This document shows, one piece after another, positions 4,431-29,390 of a stretch of DNA of 35,969 nucleotides. Numbering within the stretch: the first letter of the stretch is position 1; every line of letters begins with the position of its first letter. A program made the position numbers and the translations under genes. Below the pieces are notes generated by a model. It saw only the letters and a program-made list of their open reading frames with translations, had not been told where the DNA came from and did no database searches. This DNA is from Candidatus Methylacidiphilales bacterium (GTDB taxonomy: Bacteria; Verrucomicrobiota; Verrucomicrobiia; Methylacidiphilales; JAAUTS01): contig JAQTNW010000036.1 in assembly GCA_028713655.1 (NCBI GenBank), positions 1 through 35,969 of the forward strand, in the 5' to 3' direction.

Positions 4431-5836
4431 TGGATGCGCTGAAGCTTGTTGAATTAAAAATGCGCCAGGCCGGGCTGGGCTGCACGGTCATTCGCGCATT
4501 TCGCCAAAATTACCTCGCCTTGGTTTCCGGTGAGACGGGGCTGATTCCCGAGGGCTCCATCCAGCCGGTTGAAAATCTGCCGCGCCTGGAGGAATTCCGG
4601 AGGGAAATTTCAAATGAGCGGGCGTCCGAGCTTGTTTCGCAGACCGTCGTTTTCAAGCTCAACGGGGGACTGGGAACGAGCATGGGGCTCGACAAGGCGA
4701 AGTCGTTGATTGAGGTCAAGAACGGCCTGAATTTTCTCGATTTTACGGCCCGCCAAATTCTGCATCTGCGTGAAAAATTTCACGCGCCGCTTCGTTTTCT
4801 GGTGCTTAACAGTTTCAACACCAGTGTTGACACGCTCAGGCATCTTCAGACGTATCCGGATCTGGGAGGAGGAGACTTGCCGTTGCAGTTGATTCAATCG
4901 AAAGCGCCGAAGCTGTGCGCCGACACGTTGCTGCCAGTGGAATGGCCCGAGCAGCCGGAACTGGAGTGGTGTCCGCCCGGACATGGTGACCTTTACCCGA
5001 CGCTTGCCGCCTGCGGATTGATGGAAAAATTCAGCCGTCTGGGGATTCGTTATCTTTTCATTTCGAATTCCGACAACCTGGGGGCAAATCTGGATCTGGG
5101 GTTGTTGGATTATTTTGCCACCTCGGAGATTCCGTTCCTGATGGAAGTTGCGGAACGCACCGCATCGGACAAGAAGGGCGGGCATCTGGCCCGGAATGCG
5201 GAAGACGGGCGATTGCTGTTGCGCGAATCGGCGCAGTGTCGCGATGAGGATGGAGCCGTATTTCAGGACATCACCCGGCACCGCTTTTTCAACACCAACA
5301 ATCTGTGGGTGAGGGTGGACCGGCTGGAGCAGGAATTGAAGGCGAACGGGGATGTTTTGCCGCTGCCGCTGATCCGGAACATCAAGACGGTGGATCCGCG
5401 GAACAAAAAATCGCCGCAGGTGGTCCAGCTTGAAACGGCGATGGGCGCGGCCATCCAGTTGTTTGAAGGGGCGGGTGCGGTTGTGGTGCCGAGGCGTCGT
5501 TTTGCCCCGGTGAAAACCACATCGGATCTTCTGGCGCTGCGTTCCGACGCGTATCGGATCAACAAGGATTTCACCTTGGAACTGGCGCCGGAGCGGAACG
5601 GCGTGCCTCCCGCCATCCGGCTGGAAGACGGGCATTACAAAATGATGGATTCGTTTGAACTCGCGTTTGGAGATGCCGTTCCCTCGTTGAAAGCCTGCCA
5701 ATCGTTGGAGATCAAAGGCCCGGTTCGTTGTGCCGGGGGCGTCCGCGTTGAAGGGAAAGTCAAAATCCTGAATAGCGCGCCGGAACGCAAGGAATGGAAG
5801 GCGGGGGTTTATCGGGATGCGGAAGTGGGCCTTTAG
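4430..5836 (+). CDS. UTP--glucose-1-phosphate uridylyltransferase, eukaryotic (UDPGP) type
   Basis: This 468-residue protein belongs to the UDPGP family (eukaryotic UGP-like), not the bacterial GalU family. It makes UDP-glucose from UTP and glucose-1-phosphate. The nucleotide-binding motif FKLNGGLGTSMG at residues 75-86 with K89 of the DKAKSL segment, the GHGDLYPTL segment, and the ISNSDNLGA motif all match the family. The C-terminal third has the expected beta-helix character (a run of KGPVRCAGGVRVEGKVKIL). Such UGPs occur in scattered bacteria including PVC members, so it is a weak taxonomic hint. It starts on the last base of the acs stop codon, so the two are probably co-transcribed. The UDP-N-acetylglucosamine pyrophosphorylase branch of the superfamily is less likely. 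Confidence 0.9.
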   Translation: MDALKLVELKMRQAGLGCTVIRAFRQNYLALVSGETGLIPEGSIQPVENLPRLEEFRREISNERASELVSQTVVFKLNGGLGTSMGLDKAKSLIEVKNGLNFLDFTARQILHLREKFHAPLRFLVLNSFNTSVDTLRHLQTYPDLGGGDLPLQLIQSKAPKLCADTLLPVEWPEQPELEWCPPGHGDLYPTLAACGLMEKFSRLGIRYLFISNSDNLGANLDLGLLDYFATSEIPFLMEVAERTASDKKGGHLARNAEDGRLLLRESAQCRDEDGAVFQDITRHRFFNTNNLWVRVDRLEQELKANGDVLPLPLIRNIKTVDPRNKKSPQVVQLETAMGAAIQLFEGAGAVVVPRRRFAPVKTTSDLLALRSDAYRINKDFTLELAPERNGVPPAIRLEDGHYKMMDSFELAFGDAVPSLKACQSLEIKGPVRCAGGVRVEGKVKILNSAPERKEWKAGVYRDAEVGL

Positions 5837-5871
5837 TCTGCGCATCTCACAGCTGAGCTGTGCAGACTAAA
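5832..5871. repeat. Inverted repeat at the end of the UGP gene (possible terminator)
   Basis: Perfect 10-bp arms TTTAGTCTGC (5832-5841) and GCAGACTAAA (5862-5871) enclose a second small palindrome, CACAGCTGAGCTGTG at 5848-5862. The left arm includes the TAG stop of the uridylyltransferase gene. There is no T-run directly after it, so a factor-independent terminator is possible but not textbook. It is the first of three abutting inverted repeats. Confidence 0.6.
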
Positions 5872-5872
5872 T

Positions 5873-5942
5873 GCTGGGCGGGGCGGGCGCCCAAGCCACG
5901 AAAAATGGGAGAACCGGCCGCTCCCTCTGCCATGTTTTCGTG
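5873..5942. repeat. Two further abutting inverted repeats
   Basis: Hairpin one: GCTGGGCG at 5873-5880 pairs with CGCCCAAGC at 5888-5896 with one bulge. Hairpin two: CACGAAAAATGG at 5897-5908 pairs with CCATGTTTTCGTG at 5930-5942 with one bulged base, and has an inner GGAG/CTCC stem. Together with 5832-5871 they fill the stretch up to the sulfur promoter with almost no unpaired bases between them. A terminator or processing array, or a tandem palindromic repeat, are the main options. Confidence 0.55.
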
Positions 5943-5954
5943 CCGGATGAGTGC

Positions 5955-5985
5955 TTGACATCATCCTCGGCCGATTCAATGTAAT
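5955..5985 (+). promoter_or_regulatory. Candidate sigma-70-type promoter of the sulfur/encapsulin operon
   Basis: A perfect -35 box TTGACA (5955-5960) is followed after 19 bases by TGTAAT (5980-5985). The spacer is longer than the ideal 17, which lowers certainty and is typical of an activated promoter. The expected start near 5992 falls just in front of the first leader hairpin (5997-6015), which makes the assignment coherent. Confidence 0.45.
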
Positions 5986-5996
5986 TTTAATATTAT

Positions 5997-6175
5997 TGCA
6001 CCGTCAACGGTGGCAACAGGTTAAACCCAAACGGCAGCCCACCGGTCATCTGGAGGTTCCATGAAATTGAAACAATGTTCATGTCCAGTTGTGTTCAGAT
6101 ACCGGTCGGATTAAAAAAATCCAAAGCCAGCGTTTGCCCGCGCGCTTTTTGTCTTCCCCTCATCGGGCTGAAGAC
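5997..6175 (+). promoter_or_regulatory. Structured 5' leader of the encapsulin/cysteine operon
   Basis: Several complementary blocks lie in the leader. P1: a small stem at 5997-6015 with loop TCAA. P2: a long stem of 6041-6054 (ACCGGTCATCTGGA) with 6094-6106 (TTCAGATACCGGT), 13 pairs with one bulged C and one G-U. P3, nested inside P2: 6060-6069 with 6073-6083, closing on an AAA loop with one bulged G. P4: 6151-6159 with 6165-6175 (GTCTTC/GAAGAC plus CCC/GGG). P2 covers part of the GGAGG that would serve the 17-codon frame at 6061, and P3 covers its start codon and both Cys codons. This looks like a translation-sensing or ligand-sensing control region. No match to a known riboswitch class was recognised. 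Confidence 0.55.
6061..6114 (+). CDS. Putative 17-residue leader peptide with two Cys codons
   Basis: The frame reads MKLKQCSCPVVFRYRSD and ends in TAA. A perfect GGAGG (6052-6056) lies 4 bases before the ATG, the best ribosome-binding site in this part of the window; the encapsulin gene itself has none. Cys codons are at positions 6 and 8 (TGT at 6076 and 6082), inside the 3' arm of the P3 hairpin. The operon that follows makes and consumes cysteine, so ribosome stalling at these codons under cysteine shortage is an attractive regulatory idea. This is inference; so short a frame can occur by chance. Confidence 0.45.
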   Translation: MKLKQCSCPVVFRYRSD

Positions 6176-6238
6176 GCCGAACCTTTCAATCTGGCCGGAC
6201 ATGGCGTTACATGCCTTTAAACGTCAACCATCAAAAAA

Positions 6239-7213
6239 ATGAGCAAAGATACCAACCCCAATCCGTCCTCTCCCTTGAGCTTGAGCGCCGCCGCGGCGCG
6301 CAACCTCGCCACCGCTTCCGTAACCGTACCGCAAATGTCGCAGATCACGCCGCGCTGGCTGCTGCGTCTTCTGCCCTATGTGCATGTGGATGGCGGTGTG
6401 TACCGCGTCAACCATGTGGCCCGCGCCAAAAAAGGTTCCGCCGCCAACGGGCATGGCGAAGTCAAAATTGATTTGTTGACTGTTGATAGCGGGGAGCCGC
6501 TGCTGCCAACGACTTTTGTCGATTACGAGACGGACCCGCGCGAGTATCATTTGACAACGATTCAGACGGTGCTGCATACGCACACGCGGGTCACCGACTT
6601 GTACAGCAATAAAATCGACCAATTGCGCGAGCAAATCCGCCTCACCATTGAGGCGCTCAAGGAACGCGAGGAATGGGAGTTACTCAACAACCCCGAGTTT
6701 GGATTGTTGCGCGAAGTGGCGCCGTCCCAGCGCATTGAGACGCGCAAAGGTTCTCCCACACCGGATGATCTCGACGAACTGCTTACGCTGGTCTGGAAAA
6801 AGCCGGCTTATTTTCTGGGCCATCCGAAGGCCATTGCCGCCTTTGGACGCGAGGCCACCCGCCGGGGCGTGCCGCCTGTCACCGTAAGCCTGTTTGGTTC
6901 GCCATTTTTGACCTGGCGTGGCGTGCCCCTGATTCCAAGCGACAAATTGGAAATCAAAGGCAACGCCACCAGCATTTTGCTGCTCCGCGTGGGCGAATCC
7001 GAGCAGGGTGTGGTCGGTTTGCAAAAAGCAGGCGTCACCGGGGAAGTAGAACCGGGGCTTTCGGTCCGCTACATGGGGACCAATGAACGCTCCATTGCTT
7101 CGCATCTCGTTACGCGTTATTTTTCCGCCGCGGTTCTGACGGAAGACGCCATCGCGCGCCTCGACAACGTCCAGGTCGGCAACTATCACGAATATGTCTA
7201 TCCCAAAGCTTGA
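6239..7213 (+). CDS. Family 2A encapsulin shell protein (SrpI-like nanocompartment)
   Basis: This 324-residue protein is a clear member of the SrpI-type (family 2A) encapsulins, HK97-fold proteins that assemble into a closed icosahedral shell in the cytoplasm. Recognisable features in order: an N-terminal arm with LSLSAAAARNLA, ITPRWLLRLLPYV at about 36-48, FVDYETDPREY, HTRVTDLYS, the NNPEFGLL segment at 150-157, PTPDDLDELL at 173-182, and the FLTWRGVPLIP segment near 223-233. The C-terminus ends with the NVQVGNYHEYVYP strand. In the family the shell encloses a cysteine desulfurase and is induced by sulfur starvation. The desulfurase gene follows here and overlaps the shell gene by 20 nt. No Shine-Dalgarno is visible, and an out-of-frame ATG lies at 6211, so translation may depend on the leader. 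Confidence 0.93.
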   Translation: MSKDTNPNPSSPLSLSAAAARNLATASVTVPQMSQITPRWLLRLLPYVHVDGGVYRVNHVARAKKGSAANGHGEVKIDLLTVDSGEPLLPTTFVDYETDPREYHLTTIQTVLHTHTRVTDLYSNKIDQLREQIRLTIEALKEREEWELLNNPEFGLLREVAPSQRIETRKGSPTPDDLDELLTLVWKKPAYFLGHPKAIAAFGREATRRGVPPVTVSLFGSPFLTWRGVPLIPSDKLEIKGNATSILLLRVGESEQGVVGLQKAGVTGEVEPGLSVRYMGTNERSIASHLVTRYFSAAVLTEDAIARLDNVQVGNYHEYVYPKA

Positions 7214-8888
7214 GCACGAGCCGACGACAGTGGAAGGGGACTTTGCCGACACAGCGCTGATTGCGCGGTTGGCCACTGAACTCTTTAGAGGGTTCGCAGG
7301 CTCAACACAGGCAGAGCGGCTGAAAGCTCCGGCAACCCCGGTTCATGACACCGGGTTGGCTGGCGCCTATCCTCCCGAAACCAGGCCCTATGCTCCGCCG
7401 GTACATCCCGCCTCACAAAGCAGCACCCGGGAACCGGAAACCGGGGGGCATTGTCCGGGTGCGGCGGATTCCTATCCTTTCGGGGAGCCGCGCTGCGTTC
7501 CCTCTCACACCGAGTCGGAAGCCGGGATAAAAAGCCCTACAGAAACTGTAGCGGCTGAGTCTGCCCGCAGCGAGCCTTTGGCAGCGCCTTTTTATTATTT
7601 CTTGAGTGAACCAGCTTCCGTGGGCAAGAACACTGCGGCAGGTTTCAACCCCGCGTCAGTGCCGATCCGTTCAGTGTTTGACGTGGAATCCGTCCGCAGA
7701 GATTTCCCGGCCTTACACCAGCAGGTTAACGGACGGCAACTCATCTGGCTCGACAACGCGGCCACCACGCACAAGCCGCAAAGTGTGATCGATGCGACTT
7801 CCAAGTTCTACGGGCGGGATAATTCCAATATCCACCGCGCAGCCCATGTGCTGGCAGCGCGGGCCACGGAGCTTTACGAGGGCGGGCGCGAAAAAGCGCG
7901 CCGTTTCCTTGGCGCCGCGGATGCTCGCGAGATTGTTTTTGCGCGCGGCACAACCGAGGCCATCAACCTTGTGGCGCAAACCTACGGCAGAAAATTCATC
8001 GGTCCGGGCGACGAAATTTTACTCACGACCCTGGAGCATCACGCGAATATTGTGCCCTGGCAATTGTTGTTGGAGCAGACCGGCGCGGTGATCCGGGTGG
8101 CTCCGATCAACGACCGCGGGGAATTGATTTTGGAGCAATTTGCAGGGTTGATTAGTTCGCGCACGAAGCTTGTTTCCGTGACGCATGTGGCGAATGCGCT
8201 GGGCACCATCAATCCGGTGGAGCAAATTATAGCCCTGGCGCATGCGCATGGCGTGCCGGTACTGGTGGATGGAGCGCAATCGACACCGCACATGCCGGTT
8301 AATGTGCAGGCCCTGGATGCTGATTTTTTTGCCTTTTCCGGGCATAAGGTGTTTGGGCCGACGGGCATTGGGGTGCTCTACGGCAAGTCGAAGTGGCTGG
8401 AGCAGTTGCCGCCCTGGCAGGGCGGCGGGCACATGATCCAGGATGTCACGTTCGCGAAAACGACCTACCAGAGCCATCCGCAGAAGTTTGAGGCGGGCAC
8501 ACAGGACATAGCGGGAGTGGTTGGTCTCGGCGCGGCGTTGGATTATTTGACAGGTCTCGGCCTTCCCGCTGTGGCGGCTTACGAGCATGAACTGCTCGAA
8601 TATGCCGCTGCCGCACTGGCAACAGTTCCGGGGCTGCGTCCCATCGGTACGGCTGCGGCCAAGGCCAGCGTTCTTTCATTTGTTATCCCGGGGATTCCTT
8701 CCGAGCAGGTGGCCAAACACCTGGACCGTTATGGCATCGCAGTGCGTTCCGGGCATCACTGCGCCCAGCCGGCCGTGCGCCGCTTCGGGCTGGAAAGCAC
8801 GGTGCGTCCTTCGCTGGCGTTTTACAACACCCGCGCGGAAGTGGATACCCTCGTCAACGCCCTGCATCAATTGTCCAAACCCGCATGA
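7194..8888 (+). CDS. SufS-type cysteine desulfurase with N-terminal encapsulation domain (encapsulin cargo)
   Basis: The protein has 564 residues; SufS alone is about 410. Residues ~163-564 form the group II cysteine desulfurase: the PLP lysine is K385 in SGHKVFGPTG, and the persulfide-forming cysteine is C523 in RSGHHCAQP. Residues 1-160 are low-complexity, Pro/Thr/Ala/Glu-rich and likely disordered, as in cargo desulfurases of family 2A encapsulins. Two short conserved-looking islands stand out: ALIARLATELF (21-31) and YYFLSEPAS (134-142), probably shell-contact motifs. The enzyme releases sulfur from cysteine as a protein persulfide, leaving alanine. The first ATG, 20 nt inside the shell gene, is needed to include the first island. 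It is the only desulfurase gene in the window and no SufU or SufE partner is adjacent. Confidence 0.92.
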   Translation: MSIPKLEHEPTTVEGDFADTALIARLATELFRGFAGSTQAERLKAPATPVHDTGLAGAYPPETRPYAPPVHPASQSSTREPETGGHCPGAADSYPFGEPRCVPSHTESEAGIKSPTETVAAESARSEPLAAPFYYFLSEPASVGKNTAAGFNPASVPIRSVFDVESVRRDFPALHQQVNGRQLIWLDNAATTHKPQSVIDATSKFYGRDNSNIHRAAHVLAARATELYEGGREKARRFLGAADAREIVFARGTTEAINLVAQTYGRKFIGPGDEILLTTLEHHANIVPWQLLLEQTGAVIRVAPINDRGELILEQFAGLISSRTKLVSVTHVANALGTINPVEQIIALAHAHGVPVLVDGAQSTPHMPVNVQALDADFFAFSGHKVFGPTGIGVLYGKSKWLEQLPPWQGGGHMIQDVTFAKTTYQSHPQKFEAGTQDIAGVVGLGAALDYLTGLGLPAVAAYEHELLEYAAAALATVPGLRPIGTAAAKASVLSFVIPGIPSEQVAKHLDRYGIAVRSGHHCAQPAVRRFGLESTVRPSLAFYNTRAEVDTLVNALHQLSKPA

Positions 8889-9883
8889 GCCGCCCCGTCA
8901 CCGTCCGTTCGGAGCAGGGCGTAAAATGCCCGGAACATGAACATGTGCAGGAATTGTCGATCTTGCCGGACAGGCCCTACGATGAATATGTGCCCGCGCT
9001 GCTTGCCTCCTACGAGCAGACAGGCGGATGGAACAATCGGGACGACCACAACATGCCGTCCAAGCGCGCCGTTGGATTGATTTGCAGGGACTTGTTGCAG
9101 ATCCTGTTTCCCGGGTTTCACGATGATGACGCGGTACACCACGGAACGGTCGCAGACTTGACGAGTGACCGTTTGTCGGACATGGCTTTGCGCCTGGAGG
9201 AACAGGTGCGGCGCAGTGTCCGCATCGGCAATCCCAAAAAGCCGACCGGTCGTACCCCGCCCATCCTGAAACAGTTCTGCAAATCCCTGCCCAAAGTGCG
9301 CGAACTGCTGCGCAGTGACATCGAAACTGCCTTTGAAAACGATCCCGCCACCCTGCATCGCGAGGAGGTTATTCTATCCTACCCATTCGTTGAAGCTATA
9401 GCGATCCAGCGCCTGGCCCATGTGCTGCATAAAGCCGGGGCGCCGATTGTGCCGCGGATGATGACAGAATGGGCGCATGCGGTGACCGGCATTGACATTC
9501 ATCCGGGGGCAAAAATCGGCTCGCATTTTTTCATCGACCACGGCACCGGTGTGGTGATTGGCGAGACTTGCCGCATTGGCAACCGGGTGAAGCTGTACCA
9601 CGGGGTCACACTGGGGGCGCGCAGCTTCGCCAAGGATGAAGCCGGGCGGGTTGTGAAGGGAGGCAAACGCCACCCTGATGTGGAAGACCATGTGACGATT
9701 TACCCGAACTCGACCATCCTCGGCGGGGAAACGGTCATTGGAGCGAATTCGACCATTGGCGCAAACGTGTTTCTGGTTTATAGTGTCCCGCCAGATTCGC
9801 TGGTGGTTTATGAGGAAAAACAATTGGTGATCCGTGACAAGGCCATTCGAAAAAAAACGGCGGACTACGATTGGATTATTTAA
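8885..9883 (+). CDS. cysE: Serine O-acetyltransferase (long form)
   Basis: The enzyme acetylates serine with acetyl-CoA to give O-acetylserine, the first step of cysteine synthesis. The 332-residue protein has an all-helical N-terminal ~200 residues and a left-handed beta-helix C-terminal domain. The core TGIDIHPGAKIG, the catalytic DHGTG at 218-222 (Asp218/His219) and VVIGET, then LYHGVTLGARSF, are diagnostic. A charged loop with KGGKRHPDVEDHV separates later hexapeptide coils. It is longer at the N-terminus than E. coli CysE (273) and fits the EpsC-like group found next to family 2A encapsulins. The ATG overlaps the desulfurase stop by 4 nt. The C-terminus ends in DWII; a terminal Ile is the feature that docks into O-acetylserine sulfhydrylase in cysteine synthase complexes. 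Confidence 0.93.
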   Translation: MSRPVTVRSEQGVKCPEHEHVQELSILPDRPYDEYVPALLASYEQTGGWNNRDDHNMPSKRAVGLICRDLLQILFPGFHDDDAVHHGTVADLTSDRLSDMALRLEEQVRRSVRIGNPKKPTGRTPPILKQFCKSLPKVRELLRSDIETAFENDPATLHREEVILSYPFVEAIAIQRLAHVLHKAGAPIVPRMMTEWAHAVTGIDIHPGAKIGSHFFIDHGTGVVIGETCRIGNRVKLYHGVTLGARSFAKDEAGRVVKGGKRHPDVEDHVTIYPNSTILGGETVIGANSTIGANVFLVYSVPPDSLVVYEEKQLVIRDKAIRKKTADYDWII

Positions 9884-9897
9884 AGGGTTTTTAAAGA

Positions 9898-10902
9898 ATG
9901 AGTTCTTCCCGCTATTATGGAATCGATCATCATGTGGGCCGGACGCCGCTGATCCGCCTGCGCCATCTCTCCGAATTGACGGGGTGTGAAATTCTCGGCA
10001 AGGCGGAATTCATGAACCCCGGTGGCTCGGTCAAAGACCGGGCTGCGCTGGGCATCATCAGCGCGGCGGAAGCCGATGGGAAACTGAAGCCGGGCGGCAC
10101 CATCATTGAAGGCACGGCTGGCAACACGGGCATTGGCCTCACCGTCATCGGCCATGCCAAAGGTTACCGCACTGTTATTGTCATTCCCGAAACACAGTCG
10201 GTGGAAAAGATCACTCTGCTGCGCACTCTGGGAGCCGAAGTGATTACCGTTCCTGAAAAGCCTTACAAGGATCCCGGCAATTACAACAAAGTGGCCCGCC
10301 GATTGGCGGAGGAGAAAGGCTGGTTTTGGGCGGATCAGTTTGACAACACGGCAAATCGGCTGGCGCATTACCGCAGCACAGGCCCGGAGATTTGGGAACA
10401 GACTTCGGGCGAAGTCTGCGCTTTTGTGGCGGCGGTGGGGACGGGCGGTACACTGGCGGGAACGGCTCTGTATCTGAAGGAGCACAATCCTGGCGTAAAA
10501 GTGGTTTGTGCCGACCCCTATGGCGCGGCCATGTGGTCGTGGTTCACTCAGGGCCACACTGAAATCAACGATGGTGATTCGGTGGCGGAGGGCATCGGCC
10601 AAGGTCGGGTGACGAAGAATCTGGAAGGCATTTCTGTGGATCACGCCTACCGCATTCCCGACCAGGAGGCGTTGACTCTTGTTTATCATCTGCTGCGCGA
10701 AGAGGGGTTGTTTCTGGGGCTTTCCTCGGGTGTGAATGTGGCGGGGGCGTTGCGCATCGCGCGCGAACTGGGGCCGGGCCGGACAATTGTTACGATTCTT
10801 TGCGATACCGGGGCGAAATACCAGTCCAAGCTTTTCAATGCCGAGTGGCTGGCCTCCAAGCAACTCAATCCCGGCCTACCGCTTGAATCGGTGCTGGGTT
10901 GA
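9898..10902 (+). CDS. cysK: Cysteine synthase (O-acetylserine sulfhydrylase)
   Basis: The product is a 334-residue fold-type II PLP enzyme. The PLP lysine is K46 in GGSVKDRAAL, the substrate loop is EGTAGNTGIG (71-80, typical TSGNTG-like asparagine loop), and the phosphate-binding loop is GTGGT (181-185). It replaces the acetoxy group of O-acetylserine with sulfide to make cysteine. It lies 14 nt after cysE, the gene for its substrate supplier and possible complex partner. A member of the cystathionine beta-synthase catalytic-core group would look similar, but the absence of a CBS regulatory domain and the operon context favour CysK. The gene ends 12 nt before the stop of the convergent metX gene, with no terminator hairpin recognised between them. 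Confidence 0.92.
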   Translation: MSSSRYYGIDHHVGRTPLIRLRHLSELTGCEILGKAEFMNPGGSVKDRAALGIISAAEADGKLKPGGTIIEGTAGNTGIGLTVIGHAKGYRTVIVIPETQSVEKITLLRTLGAEVITVPEKPYKDPGNYNKVARRLAEEKGWFWADQFDNTANRLAHYRSTGPEIWEQTSGEVCAFVAAVGTGGTLAGTALYLKEHNPGVKVVCADPYGAAMWSWFTQGHTEINDGDSVAEGIGQGRVTKNLEGISVDHAYRIPDQEALTLVYHLLREEGLFLGLSSGVNVAGALRIARELGPGRTIVTILCDTGAKYQSKLFNAEWLASKQLNPGLPLESVLG

Positions 10903-13493: not shown

Positions 13494-14483
13494 TTAGAAT
13501 TCGTATTTGACCTGCGCTGCGACGCCTGTCTTTTCCGATGTGTCGAGTACGTTTCCGAAATAGCCATAGCCGACAGTGATGGTGATATGGTTGTTGGGCA
13601 CAAAGGCCAGGCCCACGGTGTACCAATCCTCTTCGGGACGCACCAGATTGCCGATGCGCGTGTACGGATTGTCTTTCTGGCGGTATTCTCCGGCCAGCCA
13701 CAACCAATCCGTGACGTTGTAGGCGATGTTGCCTTCAAAAGTGGCTTGGTAGGTGTCGCCAAAGCCCACATAACCGAGTTGTGAGGCTTCAGTCAACCTG
13801 ACGCCTGCCGAAATCAGCAGCGGGCGGTCGAACACCTTCGGGAAGGTTTTGCTGGCCGTCAGAGTGAAGTCCACGCCGTCGTTGCTTTTGTATCCGATGT
13901 TGGTGAGTCCCCCGCCCAAACGGTTATTGATCTGGGCAATGCCATCATTGTATTTGTAGGAAATACCCGCTGTGATGGCGGGTACCGGGACATTAAAGCT
14001 GTTTTCAGGAATGATGAGTCCGCGTACATTGAAGTTGTACAGATAAACGTCGTCCCGTCTGATGTCGGGGCCCCCTGCATCAAGCACGGAATTACGCAGG
14101 CTGCCGGTGCCAAACCGGCTGGCGGAAAATCCGAGTTCGACGCGCTGCAGCAGGGTTTCGGTCAGAGCGAAGACTTCAATATTTTTTTGGTCTGCGTTAA
14201 TGTAGGTGCCGGAAACCGAGGGCAGTCCGAAGATCTGGTCTTTGGGCCCGGGATTCACCAGGTAAGCGGTTGGGGTAATGAGGATACCGCCTGTTCCTTC
14301 GATTGTGTGGAGGGGCAGAGGCGCGCCCTTTTCATTCCTGGCGGGTGCGTCTGACTGCACCACTTTGTCGAGTTCATGTACATTGGTTTTGGGGTTTCCG
14401 GTGTCGGCGTTGGCCAATGCCGGATAGAGCAGCAATAGTGAGGCGACGACCCAGGAAATGGATAAATATTTGGCTATTTTCAT
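13494..14483 (-). CDS. Predicted outer membrane beta-barrel protein, DUF3034-like
   Basis: A signal peptide is clear (charged MKIAKY, hydrophobic stretch to ~22, ALANA cleavage near residue 26). The mature part has alternating strands rich in aromatic and Gly residues and ends in VKYEF, the terminal Phe expected of an outer-membrane barrel recognised by BamA. The segment LLQRVELGFSASRFGTG resembles the RVELS block I associate with the DUF3034 family; that assignment is from memory and moderate. The function is unknown; a porin-like or surface role is possible. A good sigma-70-type promoter lies ~180 bp upstream (14664-14692), giving a long leader. A GGAG lies ~11 bases before the ATG. Confidence 0.7.
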   Translation of the reverse strand: MKIAKYLSISWVVASLLLLYPALANADTGNPKTNVHELDKVVQSDAPARNEKGAPLPLHTIEGTGGILITPTAYLVNPGPKDQIFGLPSVSGTYINADQKNIEVFALTETLLQRVELGFSASRFGTGSLRNSVLDAGGPDIRRDDVYLYNFNVRGLIIPENSFNVPVPAITAGISYKYNDGIAQINNRLGGGLTNIGYKSNDGVDFTLTASKTFPKVFDRPLLISAGVRLTEASQLGYVGFGDTYQATFEGNIAYNVTDWLWLAGEYRQKDNPYTRIGNLVRPEEDWYTVGLAFVPNNHITITVGYGYFGNVLDTSEKTGVAAQVKYEF

Positions 14484-14642
14484 GGTTTTTCATACTCCGC
14501 GAAAACCGCCAGGGGTCTGGTAAGTTCCAGCTCTAAATTTTATTAATAAGCCCGCACTGGAGTGGTGGCATGGATTCGACCTACCGGGGAGCAGGGAATC
14601 TGAGAGGCAGCCCATCCAAGGACATCCAGCGCAAATTCCATA

Positions 14643-26177: not shown

Positions 26178-27590
26178 ATGAATGTCGCCGAAAAACCTGA
26201 TTTGAATCTGGACGTGGAGATGGGAAATTTTTCCTATCCAGAGAGTTACGCCTTTGACGCGGGCATCGGCCTCAGCGAGGACACGGTACGTTACATCAGC
26301 GACATCAAGGACGATCCGGAGTGGATCCGCCAGTTCCGTCTGAGAGCTTTGGATATTTTTCTCAAGAAACCGACACCGACGCATTGGGCCAGCAAGGACC
26401 TGGAAAACATCCATTTTGAAAAAATCCGGTATTACCTGTCCAAGGGCCAGGTTCCCAAACGCAGTTGGGACGAAGTGCCGGATGATGTGAAGAGGACCTT
26501 CGAGCGACTGGGCATTCCCGAAAAGGAACGCAAATTTCTGGCCGGCGTGGAAGCGCAGTTCGACAGCGAAGCCGCCTACTCTAACATGAAGCAGGCCCTG
26601 ACCGACCAGGGCGTGATCTTTGTGGGGAGCACCGAGGGATTGAAAAAATATCCTGAGATTTTCCGGCCCTGGTTCGGCAAGGTGATCCCGATCGGGGACA
26701 ACAAATATTCCGCCTTGAACAGCGCGGTGTTCAGCGGGGGTAGTTTCATCTACGTGCCCAAGGGCGTGAAAGTCCGCCATCCGTTGCAGGCCTATTTCCG
26801 GATCAATGCCGAATCCTTCGGCCAGTTTGAGCGCACGCTCATCATTGCCGACGAAGGTTCTGAAGTGACCTACATGGAAGGCTGCACGGCCCCCAAGTTT
26901 GAGACCACCACGCTGCACAGCGCCGTGGTCGAACTGGTTGCGCTGAAAGGCGCCAAGATCCAGTACATCACCGTGCAAAACTGGAGCGCGAACGTTTTTA
27001 ACCTGGTGACCAAGCGCGGCATGGCGATGGAAGAAGCCGAGATCAAGTGGATCGATTGCAACATCGGCTCGCGCCTCACCATGAAATATCCCGGCGTGAT
27101 TTTGAAAGGCCGCAAGGCGCGCGGCGAAGTCCTCAGCATCGCCCTGGCCAACAACGGACAGCACCAGGACACCGGCGCCAAGATGATTCATGCGGCGGAC
27201 GAAACCACCAGCAACATCATTGCCAAGAGCATCAGCATCGGCAAGGGCCGGTCAAGTTACCGCGGCCTGGTGCATATCCCGAAACACTTGAAGCATTGCA
27301 AGAACAACACGGAGTGCGACGCACTTCTCATCAACCCGGAATCCCGGACCGATACGTACCCTGCGATTTCGGTCCGGGGTGACGGGAACTCCGTCCAGCA
27401 CGAGGCCAGCGTGAGCAAGGTCAGCGCCGAGCAGATTTTTTACATGCAACAGCGCGGACTCAGCGAGGCCCAGGCCATGAGCCTCAGCGTCAACGGATTC
27501 GTGAACGACCTCGTCAACCAGTTCCCGATCGAATACAGCGTCGAACTGAAACGTTTAATCGATCTTGAAATGGAAGGCTCAGTCGGCTAA
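26178..27590 (+). CDS. sufB: SUF Fe-S scaffold protein SufB
   Basis: The 470-residue protein is full length for SufB, the scaffold in which Fe-S clusters are assembled together with SufC and SufD. Hallmarks: an N-terminal helical region, [20 protein letters not shown] (20 residues), YMEGCTAP, the strand-rich beta-helix core, [29 protein letters not shown] and the C-terminal [13 protein letters not shown]. The [10 protein letters not shown] stretch resembles the SufB form seen in actinobacteria and some others rather than the E. coli form. It is second in the suf operon. Confidence 0.97.
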
Positions 27591-27630
27591 TTCGGAAGGT
27601 TCAAAACCTCAATATTAGACAAGGAAAACT

Positions 27631-27864
27631 ATGGCAGATTTAGCAAACCGTTATCCGGAAAATGTTCCGGGATCGTATTACGTGGACAACCAATGCATCG
27701 ACTGCGACCTGTGCCGTGAAACGGCTCCGGCCAATTTCAGCCGTCAGGACGACGGCGGCTACTCGTATGTCTATAAGCAGCCGGCCAGCCCTGAAGAGGC
27801 CGCGCTCTGCAAGGAAGCCATGGAAGGCTGTCCGGTTGAAGCCATCGGCAACGACGGCGCCTGA
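27631..27864 (+). CDS. [4Fe-4S]-type ferredoxin in the suf operon
   Basis: This 77-residue ferredoxin has one cluster-binding set: Cys22, Cys25 and Cys28 in CIDCDLC, and Cys67 in GCPVEAIG. Cys60 is an additional cysteine. The length and the lone CxxCxxC...CP set match single-cluster ferredoxins. A clear AAGGA site precedes the ATG. Its position between sufB and sufD suggests a job in cluster assembly, such as electron supply, or being the client; the latter two are inferred. Confidence 0.93.
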   Translation: MADLANRYPENVPGSYYVDNQCIDCDLCRETAPANFSRQDDGGYSYVYKQPASPEEAALCKEAMEGCPVEAIGNDGA

Positions 27865-27953
27865 CCCTTTTTTACTCGGTTAAATCGGGCTCAAAAGCGG
27901 CCCCGCCAGAGCCGGAGCCGGACGAAAACCCGGTTTCCGAATCTGGGAGTCTG

Positions 27954-29390
27954 ATGAAATACATGGAAACTGTTGTGGAAGAGAAATCATCGGGGACGGC
28001 GGCAAACGCCACAGGGACAAGCTCTTCCCTGTTATCAGATCCGGTTCCCGGCCGCCAAACGTCCGAACTTCCGGCTTGGTGGGTGGAAGGGCAACTGGAA
28101 AGCTGGAAACGGTTTCAGTCGCTGCCCATGCCCAAACGCAAGGATGAAGACTGGCGCTTTGCGACGATCCAAAGCCTGGAGCTCGGCCCCTATGTGCTGC
28201 CGGATCCGACGCCCGAATCCTTCCGCGAACAGATACTCAACGCTTCCAAAGCCGATTTTGAGACGGCCGGACATGCGGTTTTTGCCAATGACGAACTGCT
28301 GTCGTTTTCCGCCATCTCGGCGGACCTGGCAGCCCGCGGGGTTATCTTCGAACCCATTTCATCGGCCTTGCGCAAACATCCTGATTTGCTGAAAAAGCAC
28401 TTCATGGAACAGCCCGTTGTTTTGGGCTCTGAAAAATTTTCCGCCCTGCACCGCGCCCGCTGCTGCGACGGCATTTTGCTTTATGTGCCGAAGAATGTGG
28501 CGGTCGAATTGCCATTGGCGGCCTGGCATTGGATGACCGGCCGGAACAGTTCCGTTTTCCCGCACACGCTGATTGTGGCGGGCGACAACAGCTCGGTGAC
28601 CTTTGCTGATTTTTACCGTTCGCTGGACGAGACGCCCGGCTTTGCGTGCAGTGTGAGCGATTTGATCGTAGGGCAGGGGGCCCGCGTCAATTATCTCTGC
28701 TGCCAGACATGGAGCGAAAGCGTGCTGACATTCCAGATGTGCTCGACTCATGTCGGCAAGGACGCCAACGCGAAATCGTTGAACTTCAATCTGGGCGGCT
28801 CGTTTGCCCGCATCGAAAGCCACAGCCGCCTGGCCGGGCCCGGCGCGCGCAGCGAAATGCTCGGCTTGTCCGCCTGCCACGGGCGCCAGGAGTTCGACCA
28901 GCGGACCCTGCAGGATCACATTGAGCCCAATACCTGGAGCGACCTGCTTTACAAAAACACGCTGAACCATCGCGCGAAAACGATCTTCGAAGGCTTGATC
29001 AAAGTGGAGCCGGGCGCGAAGCAAACCGATGCCTATCAAACAAATCGCAACCTTCTTCTCAGTGCCGACGCCGAGGCCGATTCGATGCCGGGCCTGGAAA
29101 TCCGCAACGACGACGTGAAGTGCAGCCACGGCGCCACGACCGGGCAGATTGATTTTGAAGAATTATTTTACATGCAGACCCGGGGCATCCCGCGCCATGA
29201 AGCCGATTACCTGATATCGGTCGGTTTCGCCGAGGAAGTGCTGTCGCGCTTTGGGCGGCCCGAAATCAGCGCGCAGTTGCGCGGATTGATTGCCGAAAAA
29301 TTCCTTCGCTCCAGGGGCATCAGTGTGGATGCGGTGGCCGAGGGCGGGATCGACGAAACCAATGTCCGCAGCCTGCAGGGGACGGAATAG
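27954..29390 (+). CDS. sufD: SUF Fe-S assembly protein SufD
   Basis: The 478-residue product pairs with SufB in the SufBCD complex. The first ~45 residues are a poorly conserved linker rich in Ser and Ala; family similarity begins at about LPAWWVEGQLESW with the PMPKRKDEDWRF segment. The beta-helix part has LLYVPKNVAVELPL, INYLCCQTW and the SufD-type C-terminus with DVKCSHGATTGQIDFEELFYMQTRG. GGGAG is 4 bases before ATG 27954. The gap after the ferredoxin is 89 bp, the longest inside the operon, and contains no clear promoter. sufT follows after 18 nt. Confidence 0.94.
   Translation: MKYMETVVEEKSSGTAANATGTSSSLLSDPVPGRQTSELPAWWVEGQLESWKRFQSLPMPKRKDEDWRFATIQSLELGPYVLPDPTPESFREQILNASKADFETAGHAVFANDELLSFSAISADLAARGVIFEPISSALRKHPDLLKKHFMEQPVVLGSEKFSALHRARCCDGILLYVPKNVAVELPLAAWHWMTGRNSSVFPHTLIVAGDNSSVTFADFYRSLDETPGFACSVSDLIVGQGARVNYLCCQTWSESVLTFQMCSTHVGKDANAKSLNFNLGGSFARIESHSRLAGPGARSEMLGLSACHGRQEFDQRTLQDHIEPNTWSDLLYKNTLNHRAKTIFEGLIKVEPGAKQTDAYQTNRNLLLSADAEADSMPGLEIRNDDVKCSHGATTGQIDFEELFYMQTRGIPRHEADYLISVGFAEEVLSRFGRPEISAQLRGLIAEKFLRSRGISVDAVAEGGIDETNVRSLQGTE

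Follow-up and report, generated by a model that had tools for sequence, protein, structure and literature searches.

What controls an operon that joins an encapsulin shell to cysteine genes? The question is raised by a contig of a Candidatus Methylacidiphilales bacterium (Verrucomicrobiota; JAQTNW010000036.1, assembly GCA_028713655.1), of which a stretch of 35,969 nt, here called the window, was analysed. An earlier note, made from the letters alone, had proposed that the leader of this operon is a structured regulatory RNA with a Cys-codon mini-gene that sets the expression of the encapsulin gene. Our analysis points to a different element in the same leader. The leader probably holds an undescribed cis-acting RNA hairpin which belongs to a class-wide sulfur-assimilation regulon and serves as an operator at the mRNA level, presumably by way of translation or mRNA fate.

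The operon and its leader

Profile matches bore out that the operon consists of encapsulin and cysteine genes (Table 1). The shell protein scored above the cut-offs of both the 2A model (NF041162) and the 2B model (NF041163), and the desulfurase scored above the cut-off of the SufS family model. The operon has the SrpI-type shell and the cysteine desulfurase cargo of a family 2A encapsulin operon, the cargo model staying just short of its cut-off. Two SufB/SufD-type genes (Fe-S cluster assembly; 26178-29390, +) are found on the same contig. Directly behind the gene that precedes the leader there is a near-perfect long inverted repeat (TTTAGTCTGC...GCAGACTAAA, 5835-5873), which is perhaps a terminator or a repeat remnant.

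Table 1. Positions of the leader elements, the operon genes and the second hairpin match in the window
Feature	Position	Strand	Remark
TTGACA, probable -35 box	5955..5960	+	read directly
Sulfur-regulon hairpin, A-GCC-CA-CCG-GTCATC-TGG-A-GGT-T	6036..6058 (core 6037-6057)	+	top match in the window to models R1 and R2
Imperfect long stem, possibly an alternative fold (mutually exclusive with the hairpin)	6041..6106	+	predicted -21.2 kcal/mol; window only
GGAGG, 3' arm of the hairpin	6052..6056	+	GGA invariant in 30 aligned hairpins
17-codon frame MKLKQCSCPVVFRYRSD, probably no gene	6061..6114	+	present, not conserved, near chance frequency
Encapsulin shell, family 2 (SrpI-like)	6239..7213	+	PF19307, E 3e-109
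Cysteine desulfurase, encapsulin cargo	7194..8888	+	NF041166, 782 bits (cut-off 800, just under)
Serine O-acetyltransferase (CysE/EpsC-like)	8885..9883	+	NF041874, above cut-off
Cysteine synthase CysK	9898..10902	+	NF007989, 505 bits
Weak possible second hairpin copy, ACT-TA-CCA-GACCCC-TGG-C-GGT	14505..14525	-	11.0 and 11.3 bits, rank 4

The letters on which the mini-gene proposal was built are correct: the GGAGG, the ATG at 6061 and the 17-codon frame with its two TGT Cys codons are all present, and both the 13-pair stem (6041-6054 with 6094-6106) and the hairpin 6060-6083 appear in the predicted fold. Of the proposed TTGACA promoter only the hexamer was found; a convincing -10 box is missing, and a consensus scan scored no promoter on the + strand. 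The segment with the long stem gave a z of -2.4, for a segment picked by hand. The structure of the whole leader (263 nt) is not unusual (z -1.46, 15 of 200 shuffles being equally good), and the fold of 5997-6120 gave a z of -1.24. The encapsulin leaders of relatives that were inspected gave no sign of the long stem. A terminator-like hairpin inside the leader (6129-6146, +; a weak 5-pair stem, then T-rich), not seen conserved, could be a weak attenuator.

As the same-family relatives examined have no encapsulin, there is no close leader to compare. A whole-leader DNA similarity search of the bacterium's own genome returned the leader itself and nothing else, the same comparison with 62 genomes of the order gave short matches at chance level only, and direct MAFFT alignment of leaders yielded nothing informative for the window.

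A short hairpin recurs in encapsulin leaders

What is conserved is a hairpin of 21 bases with the pattern NNN-[G/C]A-CCN-(6 nt)-NGG-A-NNN (the GCUGACCGGACCACCGGAGGC hairpin). It consists of a 3-pair outer stem, an internal loop with GA or CA on the 5' side against A on the 3' side, and an inner stem which begins CC/GG and closes a loop of usually six bases. The six-pair hairpin is present in 12 of 37 verrucomicrobial encapsulin leaders (window included), compared with 0.28 expected from shuffles; in 268 kb of other sequence from the same loci it occurs 8 times. A strict scan gave 16 matches in 13 of the 37 leaders versus 12 in 261 kb elsewhere, and left 24 leaders without a recognisable copy.

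The pairing is kept while the letters change. Several leaders carry two copies with wholly different stems (GATCC/GGATC, GCGAGCC/GGTTCGC, TTC/GAA). In the alignment, 75 cells were changed on both sides versus 25.6 in shuffles, a count which is partly inflated because the scans and models demand pairing. The covariation score was 0.408 versus 0.174, and slid versions reached at most 0.08. Among the variable pairs 34 were G-U and 4 A-C, a ratio partly biased by the model. The ACC-N8-GGA core, for which pairing was not required, was found in the leaders 23 times on the coding strand and 0 times on the opposite strand. The inner helix is predicted with a median probability of 0.76; for the three outer pairs, which are weak, the median is 0.02.

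In 16 of the 17 hairpin-bearing encapsulin leaders TTGAC[ACGT] lies 39-104 nt upstream of the hairpin, and the copy of the window lies 82 nt after TTGACA, as in the relatives. The distance to the encapsulin ATG is about 80-230 nt, whereas at other genes it is often 20-30 nt. Two further leader pieces are conserved: GAGTCCACGAGGATAC, upstream of the hairpin in one genus (L003, L032), and CCGATCCCACGTGGGAACG, downstream of it in two families of the order to which the window belongs (L011-L014, L024, L025).

The window copy combines the [GC]A-CCN-N6-NGG-A core with the 3-pair outer stem, is the sole strict-pattern match on both strands of the 36 kb, and stands on the coding strand upstream of a sulfur-assimilation operon, the encapsulin/cysteine operon. 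Model R1, a covariance model trained on 14 hairpins from leaders other than that of the window, gave it the top score of the whole window, 18.1 bits (E 0.0097 over 72 kb; runner-up 12.3 bits). Model R2, built from 30 hairpins, again with the window left out, gave 19.2 bits (E 0.0033). A weak possible second copy lies 21 nt upstream of a DUF3034 gene (13494-14483, -), with C replacing the 3' A. It fits the regulon, but by its own score it would be chance. In G241, which is another genome of this order, the DUF3034 homologue carries two strong tandem hairpins (L075), and a possible further weak hairpin of the same shape is found before the DUF3034 gene of the window at 14573 (-).

Genes behind the hairpin in other genomes

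Covariance-model searches were done in 30 encapsulin genomes and then in 384 genomes of the class. The strongest matches were mostly located on the coding strand upstream of sulfur genes. The hairpin precedes cysK (L065, L066, L096) at 25-27 nt from the ATG, sulfate-binding proteins (L076, L129, L130, L164; TIGR00971 above cut-off), porins of the OprO/P, OprB and alginate-export types, and a carbonic anhydrase (L093). At L158 an encapsulin was recovered via the hairpin, its protein not having been used in the search. Sulfate operons are arranged as DUF2292, hairpin(s), porin, sbp, permeases and cysA; the stop codon of the DUF2292 (YezD-type) gene lies 1-89 nt upstream of the hairpin in the 14 loci examined (Pfam-confirmed in five), and one hairpin-bearing sulfate operon includes a PAPS reductase gene. 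Tandem hairpins are frequent, with a spacing of mostly 38-52 nt. Weaker model matches inside reading frames (most of L097-L112, L133, L134, L136, L137 and others) were set aside as chance.

Its recurrence before sulfate-uptake and cysteine genes of related Verrucomicrobia makes the hairpin a probable sulfur-regulation signal of a new kind. We consider it fairly probable that this small hairpin, often present in tandem, marks out a sulfur regulon which is controlled post-transcriptionally throughout the class and comprises sulfate porins, the sulfate ABC transporter, cysK and encapsulin, with an RNA-binding regulator or a metabolite as its reader.

Two observations concern neighbouring genes. 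Hairpin-bearing sulfate-uptake operons are adjoined by the gene of an Rrf2-type regulator at L182, L183, L190 and L191, which makes this protein a candidate sulfur regulator at the four loci. At L126, L135 and L155 the hairpin stands upstream of a type-IV-pilin-like gene (N_methyl/DUF1559). As L187, at the same place as L126, has permease and CysA-like genes downstream, the pilin-like protein may belong to sulfate operons.

Alternative readings of the leader

The earlier proposal amounts to a leader peptide in the style of the mycobacterial polycysteine leaders: ribosomes would stall on MKLKQCSCPVVFRYRSD when cysteine is short and thereby shift the fold of the leader. It can draw on the GGAGG 4 nt upstream of the ATG, on the frame with two Cys codons, on the possibility of mutually exclusive folds and on the weak terminator-like site 6129-6146. 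Encapsulin leaders were gathered both from GTDB contigs and from whole genomes belonging to the same class, and short frames that combine a ribosome site with Cys codons were looked for in them. None of the leaders inspected has a comparable Cys frame at that place, an outcome which the earlier note had itself named as refuting. A conserved run of Cys codons is not seen: the frame has two Cys in 17 codons and no homologous frame, and a frame that has two or more Cys codons behind a Shine-Dalgarno-like site turned up in 2.2% of the shuffled leaders, and 4.5% of the real 250-nt stretches taken from the window contained one. Part of the GGAGG falls in the long stem, as had been noted, but the GGAGG is the 3' arm of the short hairpin 6037-6057, which the first reading had missed, and this conserved hairpin accounts for it. 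An ATG after the GGAGG is peculiar to the window among encapsulin leaders, and elsewhere the hairpin recurs with no ATG following. We also considered the GGAGG as a displaced ribosome site and ruled this out because only GGA is invariant (GGAAGC, GGACGC and GGATGC occur). The encapsulin gene has no ribosome site of its own before its ATG at 6239, as had been stated; the inference from this that the leader frame is coupled to it is not supported, since a Shine-Dalgarno site is absent in 27 of the 29 leaders tested and its absence, being common in these genomes, is not evidence for coupling. The mini-gene looks accidental, and cysteine-dependent stalling on it would be very improbable. The more general suggestion of a regulatory RNA structure in the leader is supported by the conservation of the hairpin; the long stem and the Cys frame, which had been put forward as this structure, are not conserved. 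That the hairpin is real in the class and the window copy a chance look-alike is quite unlikely, too. When the upstream stretch of 402 nt is shuffled, 0.9% of the shuffles contain the six-pair pattern, and CA replaces GA in the internal loop. In the window's own genome no other strong copy was found beside a sulfur gene; its two best matches elsewhere (C26, C15) do not precede such genes. Yet the E values of R1 and R2 hold over 72 kb, and the match falls on the + strand of the expected leader, at the expected distance from TTGACA; the CA variant is present in L028, L085 and the first copy of L075 as well.

With the hairpin taken as the conserved element, the question is whether it acts as RNA or as DNA. 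The strand is fixed, the internal loop is asymmetric, the pairs covary, G-U is preferred over A-C, and the copies are placed between cistrons, just before starts which mostly have no Shine-Dalgarno site; for these reasons we hold with good confidence that the element works at the RNA level. Counted against this are the thermodynamically weak outer stem and the nearby Rrf2-type regulators, which bind DNA. It is unlikely that the inverted repeat is instead a DNA operator, the site of an Rrf2-type (CymR-like) repressor encoded beside several sulfate operons, as the Rrf2 genes near the hairpin in four examined loci and the position near the presumed transcription start of cysK at L065 might suggest. 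The hairpin copies do not look like an Rrf2/CymR operator, which would be symmetric, found in either orientation and placed at the promoter: they occur exclusively on the coding strand (23 versus 0), with an asymmetric internal loop and G-U over A-C at 34:4, they stand between genes of one operon, 1-89 nt past the DUF2292 stop, and in most encapsulin leaders they lie 62-104 nt beyond the -35 box. At the RNA level, a single or tandem riboswitch of small size, to which a sulfur metabolite (cysteine, O-acetylserine, sulfide or PAPS) would bind with no protein needed, would be consistent with the tandem arrangement, with the invariant letters of the internal loop and with a regulon made up mostly of sulfate and cysteine genes. 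We regard it as rather unlikely, as a metabolite aptamer would hardly be this small, single copies are common and the outer stem is weak alone.

An operator hairpin in the mRNA, read by a binder, is the interpretation we prefer. The hairpin would most likely act close to genes that have no Shine-Dalgarno site; there, a protein or metabolite that responds to sulfur may bind the [G/C]A/A internal loop and alter translation initiation or the fate of the mRNA. Points that speak against this interpretation are the many encapsulin leaders with no recognisable copy, the greater distance to the ATG in encapsulin leaders, the weak outer pairs, the more stable long stem in the window, and the genome of the window having shown no second strong copy beside a sulfur gene. 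Control of translation through such a binder is what we infer. In the window, the hairpin and the long stem are mutually exclusive, because 6041-6057 is common to both, and by prediction the long stem outcompetes the hairpin (-21.2 versus -6.5 to -7.0 kcal/mol). Binding could here also choose between the two folds.

Relation to known systems and implications

Rfam 15 (SAM, T-box, guanidine-II and other families) gave no relevant match in the loci scanned, even where E values up to 2-5 were allowed. The guanidine-II (mini-ykkC) riboswitch consists of paired small hairpins in leaders, a few tens of nt apart. The sulfur hairpin resembles it in this pairing of small leader hairpins but differs in its loops and internal loop, in the absence of an Rfam match and in the sulfur genes it precedes. 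With the SAM riboswitch families and T-box leaders it would share RNA control of sulfur or amino-acid genes; it is far smaller and the scanned leaders had no Rfam match to them. In Firmicutes, the CymR/Rrf2 cysteine regulon uses a single signal for sulfate-uptake genes and cysteine genes alike. The proposed regulon is similar in that a single signal covers both gene sets with Rrf2 genes nearby; however, the signal of Firmicutes is a promoter operator, whereas the hairpin is directional, intercistronic and paired like RNA.

In mycobacteria, polycysteine leader ORFs are described as cysteine-responsive attenuators (Canestrari 2020, as cited in PMC13236596). They are likewise leader elements before cysteine genes, but as PMC13236596 presents them their frames are rich in Cys, whereas in the window the frame lacks conservation and it is a hairpin of untranslated RNA that is conserved. 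Family 2A encapsulin operons comprise, in the accounts of PMC8049743 and PMC8346489, a shell, a cysteine desulfurase cargo and a serine acetyltransferase, all of which the window operon shares, and the same accounts have the SrpI of Synechococcus induced by sulfur starvation. A term search of the texts of these two papers found no leader RNA element.

No published description of the hairpin was found in the open-access literature. We know of no earlier RNA signal in Verrucomicrobia that acts in cis on sulfur-assimilation genes, and the hairpin would be the first such signal there to our knowledge. If our interpretation is correct, a shared RNA element ties the encapsulin nanocompartment to the sulfate-uptake regulon, and the question of when, and for what reason, the compartment is built in these bacteria would become directly testable. 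It would also point to an undiscovered sulfur sensor, which could be a protein that binds RNA or a riboswitch of very small size.
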